A stretch of 12,411 bases of DNA from positions 1 through 12,411 of the forward strand of contig JACQVL010000104.1 of the NCBI GenBank assembly GCA_016209865.1, in the 5' to 3' direction. Every line of letters begins with the position of its first letter. The first letter of the stretch is position 1. Positions 2,010 to 12,363 of this stretch are shown in pieces. A program made the position numbers and the translations under genes. The notes under the pieces are model-generated. The model had not been told where the DNA came from and ran no database searches. It worked only from the letters and a program-made list of their open reading frames with translations. This DNA is from Candidatus Latescibacterota bacterium (GTDB lineage Bacteria > JAAXHH01 > JACQVL01).

Positions 2010-4199
2010 ATGCAGAATCATTTTCAGGCGAATCTGCGCTCACGCCACCTCGTTTTTGTGACCCTTTTCGCCCTCCTTTTTGCCACTCCCGTGGTTCTCT
2101 TCTTCGCTGCTCGTTCACATTCCGCAATCCAAAATCCAAAATCTAAAATCCAAAATCCTTCTCGAACCCCGAATCCCGAACCCCGAACCCCGACCATCCT
2201 CTGGCTGGAAGCGGAACGGGCGATCGCCACGACGTTCGACGATCTGTACCCGGCGGCCGGACTCAGCGGCGGCCGATCTCTCCATTTTTCGACCGCGCGC
2301 GCGACGGCGCTCGACCGCTACACCGCCCGGTACCGGATGACAGTGCCCCGGACAGGCCAGTACGTGGTGTGGAGCCGCCGGCATCTGTACTACTACAACG
2401 AGGGCCGCCTTCCTCTGCTCACGCGGCTCACCCGGTACGCGGAGCTCGGGTGGCGGGTCGACGGCGGCGCGTGGTCTCATACGCCAGGGGATGAGGCCCC
2501 GGTCGGGGTGATCGAGGGCAGTTATCACTCCGTCGGGCATCTCGGCTTGACCCGGACGGGCACGGCGGAGATGGCTGGACAGTACATCGGATGGTATCGA
2601 GATGGCGAGGTCTTCCTTCGCGCGGGCGAGCATACGTTCGACGTCACCATCCGGTTCCGGCAGACGACGGCCACGCCGCTGTTCCGCCCGCGTCCTCATC
2701 GTTATTACGGACTGCTCGACGCGTTCGCGTTCGCGGAGCCCGGGTTTGTGCCGAACGGACGGTTTCGTCCCGCGTCCGCCGTCGATGCGGCCCCAGGCCG
2801 GCCGAGGCCCGTCGGGACCGGCGCCGTCGAGGTGGATGTCTCCGCGGTCCGTGATACGATCCCCAACCTGATCGGGTTTTCGCTCGTCGGCACCGACCCG
2901 GCGCAGGTCGCCCGGGTTCGAGCCATCCGGCCGGGGTTGATCCGCCAGTGCCATCTCTACAACCTGGCCCGGGTCTCTCGCGGAGCCGACGGCCGGCTCA
3001 GGATCGACTGGACTGAGGCGGACCGGGCGATCGACCATATCCTCAGCCTCGGCAGTCAGCCGTTGATGTGCCTCAGCTATACCCCGTCCATTCTCTCCTC
3101 CCGTCCGTCGGATGAGGAGACCCGCGACCCCGGCCTGTACCCGCCCACGAACTACGTCGAATGGGAAGAGGTGGTATTCCAGACGGTGAAACATTTCAAC
3201 GTCGACCGCCGGCTCGGCATCCGGTACTGGGAGGTCTGGAACGAGCCGAATAACGTCTTCTGGAACGTCCGGCCACGTTGGGCCTGGCTGAGGTACGTCC
3301 CGTTCTACAGCCCCTATGAAGGGCGGTTGTATGAACTCACCCGGCTCTTCGCCTACTGTTCCCTCTACGAGCATGCGGCCCGGGGAGCAATACGGGCGGA
3401 CCCGACCATCCGGGTCGGCGGGCCGACGGCGCTCTGCGACGGGGATGTCGAAGATGTAACGGGCAGCGCCCGGTGGTGGACGCAAGTCCTGGCCCGGTGG
3501 TGCGGCTGGCGGGATATCCGACTGGACTTCATCTCCCTCCACCTCTACGGCGCGCCCCCGGACGCGAGCGGGCCGGCGGACTATGCCGACCTCATCCGGC
3601 GGGCGCGCCAGTGGGGCAGCCGCTCAGGAGGCCGTGTCCCGGAAGTCATCATCGATGAATGGAACGCCTGGAGCATGGAAGGTGGGCACGACACCGCCAC
3701 CGCCTACCATGCAGTCTGGGTGATGGAGACGCTCTACGCGATGATGGAAGCGGGCGCGCGGCACAGCGTCTACTTCGGAGCGGGCGGCGGGTTCTTGGGG
3801 ATGCTCACCGACCAGGGGGACACCCCGAAGCCAACGTACAACCTGTTTCGCATGATGAGCCTGATGGGGCGCGACCGCGTCGCCGCGCACGCCGCCCCGG
3901 CGGATGTCCGCGCGCTGGCCTCCCGGTCGGGACAGACGGTCACCGTCCTGCTCTGGCGGTTCGGCGCGGCCGACCGGGAGATCGTCCTGAGTGTCTCTCC
4001 GTTCCGGACTGGCGCCACCGTTCAGTGCCGACGCCTGGTGATCGATGATCGTCACAGCAACCTGAATGCGGGTCTGGAGCGTGCGGAGCTGGAGGAGGTT
4101 GAACAGCGGACCCTGTCTGTCGGACCGGACAGGCGCGCCCGGCTGACCGTCCGACTCCCACCGACGAGCGCGACGCTGCTGATATTCGAAGCGGAATAA
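2010..4199 (+). CDS. Secreted or anchored GH39-like glycoside hydrolase with N-terminal carbohydrate-binding-like domain
   Basis: This 729-aa protein has a hydrophobic signal or anchor at about residues 13-34 after basic residues R10 and R12. A low-complexity linker (39-61, repeat-derived) follows. Residues 63-265 form a beta-rich domain opening with WLEAE, similar to CBM6/35-type modules. The catalytic region runs from about 280 to 650. It contains WEVWNEPN with E412, the expected acid/base after Asn411, and VIIDEWNAW with E550, the expected nucleophile; this pair is the clan GH-A signature and most resembles GH39 (beta-xylosidase/iduronidase type). A beta-rich C-terminal piece completes the fold. 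The substrate cannot be told. The frame is also open upstream to 1839, but that stretch overlaps the aminotransferase gene in another frame. ATG 2010 gives the signal sequence, though no good ribosome site precedes it. The glycosyltransferase 31 nt downstream suggests a shared polysaccharide role. Confidence 0.85.
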   Translation: MQNHFQANLRSRHLVFVTLFALLFATPVVLFFAARSHSAIQNPKSKIQNPSRTPNPEPRTPTILWLEAERAIATTFDDLYPAAGLSGGRSLHFSTARATALDRYTARYRMTVPRTGQYVVWSRRHLYYYNEGRLPLLTRLTRYAELGWRVDGGAWSHTPGDEAPVGVIEGSYHSVGHLGLTRTGTAEMAGQYIGWYRDGEVFLRAGEHTFDVTIRFRQTTATPLFRPRPHRYYGLLDAFAFAEPGFVPNGRFRPASAVDAAPGRPRPVGTGAVEVDVSAVRDTIPNLIGFSLVGTDPAQVARVRAIRPGLIRQCHLYNLARVSRGADGRLRIDWTEADRAIDHILSLGSQPLMCLSYTPSILSSRPSDEETRDPGLYPPTNYVEWEEVVFQTVKHFNVDRRLGIRYWEVWNEPNNVFWNVRPRWAWLRYVPFYSPYEGRLYELTRLFAYCSLYEHAARGAIRADPTIRVGGPTALCDGDVEDVTGSARWWTQVLARWCGWRDIRLDFISLHLYGAPPDASGPADYADLIRRARQWGSRSGGRVPEVIIDEWNAWSMEGGHDTATAYHAVWVMETLYAMMEAGARHSVYFGAGGGFLGMLTDQGDTPKPTYNLFRMMSLMGRDRVAAHAAPADVRALASRSGQTVTVLLWRFGAADREIVLSVSPFRTGATVQCRRLVIDDRHSNLNAGLERAELEEVEQRTLSVGPDRRARLTVRLPPTSATLLIFEAE
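2119..2195 (+). repeat. Compound repeat (CCAAAAT-type plus CGAACCC-type) inside the glycosidase coding sequence
   Basis: The left half (about 2119-2158) is built of tandem near-copies of AATCCAAAAT and AATCTAAAAT. The right half (about 2163-2195) is tandem CGAACCC/CGAATCC. The left half matches the arms of the foldback at 4934-5094, and the right half matches the arms at 12214-12363. The whole stretch is translated in frame as residues 39-61 of the glycosidase, rich in Pro, Asn, Lys and Arg. Confidence 0.85.
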
Positions 4200-4230: not shown

Positions 4231-4929
4231 ATGATGACCCGCTCCCTGCGCATCAGCGTGATTATTCCCACCCTCAACGAAGAGCAGACGATCGCGACCT
4301 GTTTGAGGCAGTTTCAAGACGGGACACCGCACGAAGTCATCGTGGTCGATGGAGCGAGCACCGACCGCACCGTCGAGGCGGCACGCCATCACTCGTTCGT
4401 TCGGGTCATCCAGAGCCCCCACTACGGGCGGGCGGTCCAGATGAACCTCGGCGCAGCGGAGGCGACGGGGGAGTTGCTCGTCTTCCTGCACGCGGATACG
4501 TTCCTCCCGGCGCGATGGCAGGACGCGATGCTCGCGTCGATCCAGCAAGATGGCGCGGTTGGCGGGCGGTTCCGTCTCCGTCTCGCCGAGCCCGGCCTGG
4601 CCTACCGGTGCATCGCGTGGGGGACAAACTTCCGCTCCCGCGTCCTGGGCATCACGTACGGCGACCAGGTGATCTACGCCCGCCGTGAGGCGTTCCAGCG
4701 AGTCGGCGGGTTTCCCCTCATCCCGTTGTTCGAGGACTCGGAATTCTGCCGGCGGCTCCGCCGGGAAGGCCGGTTTGCGTGGATCGATCAGCCGGTCATC
4801 ACGTCCGCCCGGCGCTGGAAAGTCCGGGGCGTGATGCGAACGGTGCTCTTGATGTGGCTACTCCGGACGCTCTACACCCTCTCTGTGCCGCCCGACACGC
4901 TGGCCCGGTACTACGGCGCGGTACGGTGA
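4231..4929 (+). CDS. Family 2 glycosyltransferase, TIGR04283-type
   Basis: This 232-aa protein is a GT-A fold glycosyltransferase. It begins ISVIIPTLNEEQTIATCL, then VIVVDGASTDRTVEAA (nucleotide-sugar site), GRAVQMNLGAAEATGE, and FLHADT with the metal-binding-like D89 near residue 89. IPLFEDSEFCRRLRR (E168, D169) would hold the catalytic base. The C-terminal run TSARRW...GVMRTVLLMWLLRTLY is characteristic of the TIGR04283 group (rSAM/selenodomain-associated transferase 2), whose substrate is unknown. The length is normal for that group. One hydrophobic helix near residues 204-220 may hold it at the inner membrane face. Start choice between ATG 4231 and 4234 is undecided because no ribosome site is visible. 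The usual partner, a TIGR04282 transferase, is not in this window. Confidence 0.9.
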   Translation: MMTRSLRISVIIPTLNEEQTIATCLRQFQDGTPHEVIVVDGASTDRTVEAARHHSFVRVIQSPHYGRAVQMNLGAAEATGELLVFLHADTFLPARWQDAMLASIQQDGAVGGRFRLRLAEPGLAYRCIAWGTNFRSRVLGITYGDQVIYARREAFQRVGGFPLIPLFEDSEFCRRLRREGRFAWIDQPVITSARRWKVRGVMRTVLLMWLLRTLYTLSVPPDTLARYYGAVR

Positions 4930-4933
4930 TTCG

Positions 4934-5094
4934 ATTTTGGATTTTAGATTTTGGATTTTGGATTAGAAGAGGATTTACAGATCTCACCCCTCAATTTCTC
5001 AACTGCTTGACTTTGCTATTTCCTCACTATATACTCATTCATCATGAGCCGTACAGGTCATGTAATCCAAAATCCAAAATCTAAAATCCAAAAT
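4934..5094. mobile_element. MITE-like foldback: perfect 32-bp inverted repeat around a 97-nt AT-rich spacer
   Basis: The left arm (4934-4965) begins ATTTTGGATTTTAGATTTTG. The right arm (5063-5094) is its exact reverse complement over all 32 bases. Each arm is itself made of seven-base-like units (CCAAAAT or CTAAAAT). The spacer 4966-5062 is clearly more AT-rich than the genes and contains a promoter. The element fills the gap between the glycosyltransferase stop (4929) and the M20 gene, and its last bases overlap the ATG at 5093. No transposase is encoded and no obvious target-site duplication was seen, so mobility is inferred only. Confidence 0.75.
5007..5035 (+). promoter_or_regulatory. Sigma-70-type promoter inside the foldback spacer
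   Basis: TTGACT (5007-5012) and TATACT (5030-5035) are separated by exactly 17 nt; each hexamer matches consensus at 5 of 6 positions. Transcription would start near 5042 and read through the right repeat arm into the M20 gene about 50 nt downstream. Confidence 0.6.
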
Positions 5095-6268
5095 GCGATT
5101 GTCCTCTGATCTCATCACGCGCGTCCGTGCGGCGGTGAATGGCGAGCGGTTGCTCGACACCGCCATCTCGCTCGTCAGTGTACCCAGTCCGACCCGGCAG
5201 GCTGGAGCGGTCGCAGACCGCTTAGCGGCGCTGCTCACGGCGGACGGGTTTGCGGTCGAGCGGCCGGTCGCGGACTGGCCAGAGTCGCCCGCGGTCGTCG
5301 TCCGCTGGCGTGCGACCCCAGGCGGCCGGACCCTTCAGTTCGATGGCCATCTGGATACCGTGCACCTCCCGTACGTGCCGCCCCGCGTCGAGAACGGAAT
5401 CCTCTACGGGCAGGGCGCGGCGGACATGAAGGGCGGACTGGCCGCTGCGGTGGAGGGACTGCGCGCGCTGCGGGATTCGGGGGGGCTTCAGGCGGGTGGC
5501 ATCCTGCTGACCGCGCACGACCACCACGAGGGGCCCTGGGGGGATAGCCGTCAGGTTCACGCGCTCATCGCGGAGGGATACGTCGGGGATGGGGTACTCA
5601 TCCCGGAGTATTTAGCCGACCGGCTGCCCATCGCAGGCCGTGGACAGGCGGTGCTCGAGATCGTCGTCCGCCGCCAGGGCGAGCGTGTCCACGAGGTGTT
5701 CCGGCCGCCGGGACAGCCGGACGTCATCGCCGCCGGAGCCGAAGTCGTGCGCCGGCTGAACGCCCTGAACGCCCGGCTCTCGCAGACGGTCTACCCTTAC
5801 ATCGGCCCGGAAACCGCGTTCGTCGGCCAGATCCACAGTGGCGAAATCTACAACCAGTCCCCGACCGAGTGCCGCATCTCAGGGACACGCCGGTGGGCGC
5901 CGGGCCACCCGATCCCGGACGCGCGGGATGAGTTCTTCGCCCTGATCCGGGAGGTCGCGGTGGAGACGGGCACGATCATCGACGGGGAGTTCTTAGTGAT
6001 GCGGGACGGGTGCCGGGTGGCCGAGGCCGACCCGCTCGTCGGGGCGCTGCAGGCGGCGCACGAGGCGGTGACCGGCCGTTCCCTCCCGCTCGGCGCCAAG
6101 CCGTTCGTGGACGACGGCAACAGCTTCGTCGCTCGCGGTCGCGTCCCGGCCTTAAGCCACGGCCCGGCGGCGGACGGGGCGCATACGACGAACGAACGGG
6201 TGACAGTCGAGGAACTCGTCCGGGTGGCGGAAGTGTACGCGCTCACGGCGGTCGCCTTCTGTGGGTGA
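5093..6268 (+). CDS. M20-family metallohydrolase (ArgE/DapE/CPG2-like amidohydrolase)
   Basis: This 391-aa, probably cytoplasmic enzyme matches the M20 peptidase/deacylase fold. DGHLDT gives H86 (zinc ligand) and D88; GQGAADMKGG gives D111, the bridging ligand. TAHDHHEGPWG covers 140-150, with E146 a likely ligand, E172 in LIPEYLAD another, and H364 in GAHTTNERV the last. The central region from about 185 to 290 is the lid/dimerisation domain. In most members the third motif is DEE with a catalytic Glu before the ligand; here His145 stands in that place, so this is a divergent subgroup. Substrates of the superfamily are N-acyl amino acids and small peptides; which one is not known. The ATG lies on the edge of the foldback arm and has no Shine-Dalgarno sequence, so translation may be weak or start differently. 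Confidence 0.88.
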   Translation: MRLSSDLITRVRAAVNGERLLDTAISLVSVPSPTRQAGAVADRLAALLTADGFAVERPVADWPESPAVVVRWRATPGGRTLQFDGHLDTVHLPYVPPRVENGILYGQGAADMKGGLAAAVEGLRALRDSGGLQAGGILLTAHDHHEGPWGDSRQVHALIAEGYVGDGVLIPEYLADRLPIAGRGQAVLEIVVRRQGERVHEVFRPPGQPDVIAAGAEVVRRLNALNARLSQTVYPYIGPETAFVGQIHSGEIYNQSPTECRISGTRRWAPGHPIPDARDEFFALIREVAVETGTIIDGEFLVMRDGCRVAEADPLVGALQAAHEAVTGRSLPLGAKPFVDDGNSFVARGRVPALSHGPAADGAHTTNERVTVEELVRVAEVYALTAVAFCG

Positions 6269-12208: not shown

Positions 12209-12213
12209 GGGCT

Positions 12214-12363
12214 CGGGGTTCGGGGTTGGGGGTTCGGGATACGGGAAAGGCAAAGCGAACAGAGTGACACAACGTTTTCATGCACGACTGGTATTCCCGC
12301 AAAAGCGAGAATCCAGTCATCCGTTGCTTTTCCCGAACCCCGAATCCCGAATCCCGTACCCCG
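12214..12363. repeat. Imperfect foldback of CGGGGTTCGGG-type repeat with nested hairpin and following T-tract
   Basis: The arms 12214-12248 and 12329-12363 are inverted copies matching at 29 of 35 positions, and pairing continues a few bases inward (GCAA/TTGC). The arms belong to the same repeat type as 2163-2195. TCTTTTTAT follows at 12364-12372, so transcripts from the MATE gene could end here. The 80-nt interior has its own hairpin. Confidence 0.7.
12286..12318. repeat. Nested hairpin repeat (ATTCCCGC...GCGAGAAT)
   Basis: GACTGGTATTCCCGC and GCGAGAATCCAGTC pair around AAAA with one bulged T and one C/A mismatch. The shape resembles ATTCCCGC/GCGGGAAT palindromic repeats dispersed in many bacterial genomes. 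It sits inside the larger foldback. Confidence 0.55.

Follow-up and report, generated by a model that had tools for sequence, protein, structure and literature searches.

The window analysed here is the whole 12 411-nt stretch of Candidatus Latescibacterota DNA. At positions 4934–5094, a 161-nt sequence composed of two arms and a spacer separates the gene for a family 2 glycosyltransferase from the gene for an M20 peptidase family protein (table 1). Over 32 nt, each arm is the exact reverse complement of the other, and ungapped extension of the match reaches 37 nt at 95 per cent. Both have a period of seven (TRF, 4933–4964 and 5064–5094, 4.4–4.6 copies). The first-pass annotation had described perfect 32-bp foldback arms made of internal arrays of CCAAAAT-like units, a rightward TTGACT-N17-TATACT motif in the spacer and a right arm touching the ATG of the M20 gene with no Shine–Dalgarno sequence; all of these features were recovered.

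The stop codon of the glycosyltransferase gene is at 4927–4929, with four bases intervening before the left arm at 4934, and the right arm (ending at 5094) overlaps the M20 ATG (5093–5095) by two bases; the element therefore occupies the entire intergenic gap. The start at 5093 is backed by an orthologue in genome G013, with length-matched N-termini (MRLSSDLITRVR here and MPISSDIIQRID in G013), and no Shine–Dalgarno sequence is present ahead of it.

Table 1. Features of the window related to the 161-nt element and its neighbouring genes.
Feature	Position	Strand	Remarks
Single array of the same family	2126–2157	+	31-nt identity with the right arm; in the GH39-like coding region, past the signal peptide
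GH39-like gene	2010–4199		Pfam Glyco_hydro_39
Family 2 glycosyltransferase, upstream gene	4231–4929	+	Pfam Glycos_transf_2, E = 3e-23
Left arm	4934–4965	-	AATCCAA-type heptad array (minus-strand reading); 5' arm in the operon mRNA; exact reverse complement of 5063–5094
Spacer	4966–5062		matches only itself in the genome search; other elements carry other spacers
Sigma-70-like promoter match, TTGACT-N17-TATACT	5007–5035	+	10/12
Right arm, AATCCAAAATCCAAAATCTAAAATCCAAAAT	5063–5094	+	family consensus; ends in the AT of the M20 ATG
M20 peptidase family protein, downstream gene	5093–6268	+	Pfam Peptidase_M20, E = 2e-19

The arms belong to a large family. In the 3.75-Mb draft genome (83% complete), the 18-mer AATCCAAAATCCAAAATC has 80 exact occurrences, against none for a reversed control. 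A BLAST search of this genome with a 176-bp query matched dozens of places with the arms and a single place with the spacer. The expectation that the element has other genomic copies is thus borne out for the arms, which are multi-copy, and not for this spacer, which occurs once. The window and 54 regions around other copies contain 39 paired elements. All 39 have the order GGATT-array, spacer, AATCC-array, and the opposite order is never found. The spacers measure 20–153 nt, most often 40–52 nt, and the ends of the elements are of the form GATTTTGG..CCAAAATC.

Within an element, the two arms differ by 4.46 mismatches per 29 nt, compared with 4.12 for arms taken from different elements, and only two of the 39 elements have arms that are perfect over 29 nt. 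The idea that the stem is maintained by compensatory change was rejected, because arms of one element match each other no better than shuffled pairs do. The perfect arms at 4934–5094 are simply two consensus arms and nothing special.

Unpaired arrays are also present, often near the N-termini of ORFs (where they encode NPKSKIQNPKSKIQ) or in 5' UTRs. They are mostly read in the AATCC sense direction, and several of the N-terminal ones lie in the signal-peptide region. Single pure arrays of four CCAAAAT units, again in the AATCC sense direction, were noticed at L211, L217, L204, L246 and L237, where they lie in the n-region of other ORFs or close to hydrophobic segments at the N-terminus; an unrelated genome shows this sense bias as well. 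In the array-rich unrelated genome G044, the arrays are mostly single, within ORFs and in the sense direction; pairing is therefore not universal.

There are several signs of mobility in this genome. Homologous spacers occur at unrelated loci (L195/L210 and L206/L224/L231), two of these elements (L224 and L231) are inverted relative to their genes, and at L216 adjacent elements have related spacers. On the basis of the position of a variant unit, the arms fall into two types: 22 elements are A/B, seven are A/A and none is B/B (Fisher P = 0.001). The A end faces downstream in 12 cases and upstream in 10. When spacers are oriented by end type, their ends carry weak but significant end-specific signals, in a set that still includes a few related spacers. 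Two end types, random polarity and end-specific signals are the traits of a mobile element that has a left and a right end and inserts in either orientation. The flanks of the elements in this genome are AT/AT, a palindrome, and no target-site duplication is detectable here (best z = 2.75 among 512 tests). There was no autonomous transposon sharing the heptad ends among the fetched loci.

The three closest M20 orthologues, from members of the same order, have other genes upstream and are hence uninformative about an empty site corresponding to 4934–5094. Filled and empty sites were for this reason compared in Nostoc, where elements with the same arms occur. In 16 Nostoc genomes, the gap between two tRNA genes (identified by reading the sequence) is empty and reads CACC-AAAATT-AGTG or a close variant. 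In six others (L471–L475 and L477), the gap is filled at the identical point by about 180 nt, CACC-AAATTTTAGATTTTAG...AATCCAAAA(TT)..AGTG. The tetramer AATT is found on both sides of the Nostoc element and in 10 of the 16 empty sites; it may represent a duplication of 4 bp or the end of the repeat itself, which would be palindromic. At a second Nostoc locus, three genomes have the insertion and several have a clean empty site; further copies of the spacer of this insertion are present elsewhere in the same genomes. Precise empty sites, the other expectation of the first-pass annotation, are thus documented by Nostoc elements whose arms are the same.

At a third Nostoc site (L409–L438), located at the CCGCTCAT start codon, close relatives carry a (GGATTTT)n array of four, five or six units. 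Other genomes have a different heptad, (ATTCGTA)n, in its place, and still others have no array. Since both the unit number and the heptad vary at this site, the arrays also change in place. The impression is of a fixed gene boundary at which one heptad array takes the place of another with a different sequence.

Exact matches to the 31-mer AATCCAAAATCCAAAATCTAAAATCCAAAAT, with its variant unit, come from at least nine phylum-level groups. The hosts among the matches listed are Cyanobacteria, Acidobacteria, Verrucomicrobia, Planctomycetes, Poribacteria, Hydrogenedentes, Armatimonadetes, Chloroflexi and a Deltaproteobacterium; many of them are metagenome bins, of which single assignments may be wrong. 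Contamination is nevertheless hard to invoke, given the presence of the 31-mer in cultured cyanobacteria and of 38 copies in one acidobacterial bin. It is also found on cyanobacterial plasmids. An identical 31-nt arm in so many groups calls for an explanation, either transfer or shared machinery. In the order to which this genome belongs, the 12 genomes of one genus have no match to the generic AATCNNN pattern, and two other genera have 15 and 44. For arrays less than 200 nt apart in the fetched loci outside this genome, the order GGATT..AATCC was observed 67 times and the reverse order twice, a tally that takes in Nostoc loci related to one another, as well as a few stretches of this genome that were added later.

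The placement of the elements is highly regular. According to a codon-usage ORF caller trained on the window, all 36 scorable pairs of the 39 in this genome have co-directional genes on either side. As a rule, no more than about 25 nt separate the 5' arm from the stop codon, and the 3' arm is directly ahead of the ribosome-binding site or the start. A looser run of the caller gave one dubious exception (L214), which involves a weak 75-nt ORF. As a background, 84 of 99 junctions in 141 kb of other contigs are co-directional, which gives P = 0.0027 for 36/36; against insertion spread over intergenic length, P = 2e-8. Part of this bias is due to the operon context, since the other junctions in the same neighbourhoods are co-directional in 38 of 41 cases. 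The same placement was observed in 12 of 12 scorable intergenic rows of the acidobacterial genome in which the 31-mer arm has 38 exact copies (length-based ORF caller; one element counted through two loci). Among loci from mixed phyla, 16 of the 25 pairs with two neighbours are between co-directional genes, and convergent and divergent placements also occur, so that the rule is not absolute. Single genes with an element on each side (L207, L216, L221, L229 and L391) are apparently commoner than the sparse copy number predicts; at L216 it is the two bracketing elements that have the related spacers mentioned above.

We consider these sequences to be non-autonomous, MITE-like foldback elements, with termini formed by inverted tandem AATCCAA arrays, a variable middle and two slightly different ends, and estimate the probability of this reading at roughly three in four. 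As expected of MITEs, all 39 copies are short and non-coding and have inverted arrays at both ends, with the outer array edges 64–211 nt apart; whole elements are dispersed at unrelated sites, both in the shared-spacer groups of this genome and in Nostoc; and the Nostoc sites provide precise empty counterparts for elements with the same arms. The description of 4934–5094 as a foldback element in the first-pass annotation is right; its arms belong to a multi-copy family, and elements with such arms are demonstrably inserted at sites that other genomes have empty. The arms are at the same time heptameric simple repeats, being tandem 7-nt units of a number that varies between relatives. Taken together, the filled and empty sites, the common spacers and the fixed arm order indicate that at least this heptad family marks the ends of mobile elements landing between the genes of operons.

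This conclusion has to be weighed against the view that heptameric slippage repeats arose in place and face each other by chance. The varying unit numbers and the alternative heptads at the third Nostoc site speak in its favour, as does the predominance of heptads among the longer repeats of many bacterial genomes (PMC4679880). Against it are the strict GGATT..AATCC order (39/39 here, 67 versus 2 in other loci), the homologous spacers at unrelated loci, the filled and empty sites that comprise both arms and the spacer, and the presence in many phyla of one and the same 31-mer, down to its variant unit. We regard slippage as improbable as the origin of the pairs. The role of portable promoter suggested by the first-pass annotation, by which the element would spread by supplying a promoter to the downstream gene, fares still worse and was rejected, because the promoter match is not conserved among copies. 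The match in this spacer (10/12, against 0.2 expected per shuffled 601-nt region; shuffle P = 0.04) has a counterpart only in L205 (11/12). Nothing comparable is present in the gene direction in the other 37 of the 39 spacers, many of which are just about 45 nt long, and the spacer of this copy, found once in the genome, differs from the others. Moreover, as the elements lie in either orientation to transcription (12 versus 10), a one-way promoter cannot be their conserved cargo. The match at 5007–5035 is probably an accident of this copy, incidental to the family, and a promoter-supplying role is very improbable.

A selected intercistronic RNA hairpin is a more serious candidate, and one compatible with a mobile origin: its stem would set mRNA processing, stability or translational decoupling. 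In this genome, the elements are placed exclusively between co-directional genes, with arms abutting stop and start, the acidobacterium repeats this arrangement and the predicted fold is strong. The RNA of the full-length element is predicted to fold at -65.3 kcal/mol (z = -6.55), with the M20 start codon inside the stem; in a predicted RNA beginning near 5042, the arm is left unpaired. There is no match to a known RNA family in Rfam. The arms, however, do not covary (4.46 versus 4.12 mismatches), neighbouring junctions are also mostly co-directional, one Nostoc copy is between tRNA genes, and pairs in other phyla also lie between convergent and divergent genes. Selection for the hairpin as such is therefore rather unlikely. 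The two-outcome model of the first-pass annotation, in which read-through from upstream buries the M20 start and a transcript begun in the spacer does not, is physically plausible, and any effect of the element on M20 expression is something that we infer from modelled folds.

If the MITE-like reading is correct, the copy at 4934–5094 would have been inserted into a short gap between the glycosyltransferase and M20 genes by a trans-acting enzyme recognizing the heptad ends, and would have displaced the ribosome-binding region of the M20 gene. Polycistronic transcripts would carry a 30-bp intercistronic stem, which could be cut by RNase III or could hide the M20 start, and transcription from the chance promoter of the spacer could circumvent this. 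A broader proposal, which we put forward tentatively and with low confidence, is that one enzyme system operating across many phyla recognizes period-7 AATCNNN arrays and moves the units that they bracket, that units swap heptads in place and that a single kind of mobile element has many of the so-called 'heptameric simple repeats' as its ends. Until now, the heptameric repeats of cyanobacteria, Xanthomonas and others have been recorded as simple sequence that lacked an explanation. If heptad arrays are mobile ends, their origin becomes directly testable, and long intercistronic stems are predicted in many mRNAs.

The closest precedent for the architecture is provided by the inverted heptad pairs of Xanthomonas. 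Rehm et al. (2015; PMC4692102) described heptameric repeats GGGAATC in Xanthomonas and GGGGA(T/C)T in Nostoc, and counted 70 and 75 closely spaced inverted pairs in two Xanthomonas genomes. Like the present arrays, these consist of 7-nt units, usually about four per array; they lie mainly in intergenic regions, for the most part flanked by co-directional genes, and in the vicinity of the upstream ORF. They differ in the unit itself, they were described as simple repeats or possible G-quadruplexes, and that report gives no evidence of spacers in common, of two types of end or of sites that are filled in some genomes and empty in others. The TAACTGA heptamers of Beggiatoaceae, cyanobacteria and Bacteroidetes (PMC4679880) also have 7-nt units, often upstream of starts and patchily distributed over phyla, but they are almost all direct repeats (one inverted case), with no paired mobile architecture described.

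By analogy, Correia/NEMIS and Chunjie are the closest functional counterparts. Correia/NEMIS, Chunjie and Nezha elements are described as short, non-coding and intergenic, with inverted-repeat ends and hairpins that are co-transcribed; Chunjie leaves the operon in which it is located unbroken, and Correia stems are RNase III sites (reviewed in PMC10969869). In contrast to these, the ends of the present elements are tandem heptad arrays, the middles are highly variable, one arm is found in many phyla and no mobilizing transposase is known for heptad-ended elements. REP/REPIN sequences mobilized by RAYT (Y1) proteins (PMC3116915) are likewise small, dispersed, intergenic inverted pairs, but they are made of single palindromes and not of heptad-array arms. 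A RAYT-driven REPIN was rejected, since the 83%-complete genome has no PF01797 match, that is, no Y1 (IS200/IS605-like) transposase. Because of the location between a stop codon and the following ribosome-binding site, an integron attC site, a class defined by R/L boxes with a GTTRRRY core and by an integron integrase, was also considered. Literature searches with the unit sequences returned matches resembling unrelated primers or other sequence and none concerning bacterial repeats. No account of heptad arrays as ends of mobile elements was found in the searches, which covered openly accessible papers.

Other heptads and palindromes were also noticed. A second inverted pair at 12209–12363, of another heptad family (GGGTTCG.. 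/ ..CCCGAAC), begins right at the stop of the MatE gene (12208), and its spacer holds a REP-like palindrome, TATTCCCGCAAAAGCGAGAATCCA. The pattern CCCGAAY has 262 matches in the genome, against none in the control, and where opposite arrays lie close together (e.g. C4, C47, C119 and C342) they have the same order as in the 12209–12363 pair. AATCCAA and CCCGAAC arrays are found back to back at 2119–2193 in the GH39-like gene, after the predicted signal peptide, and are translated as AIQNPKSKIQNPSRTPNPEPRTPT. The spacers of L197, L218, L221 and L247 contain a nested REP-like palindrome, GGATTCCCGC..GCGGGAATGAC.
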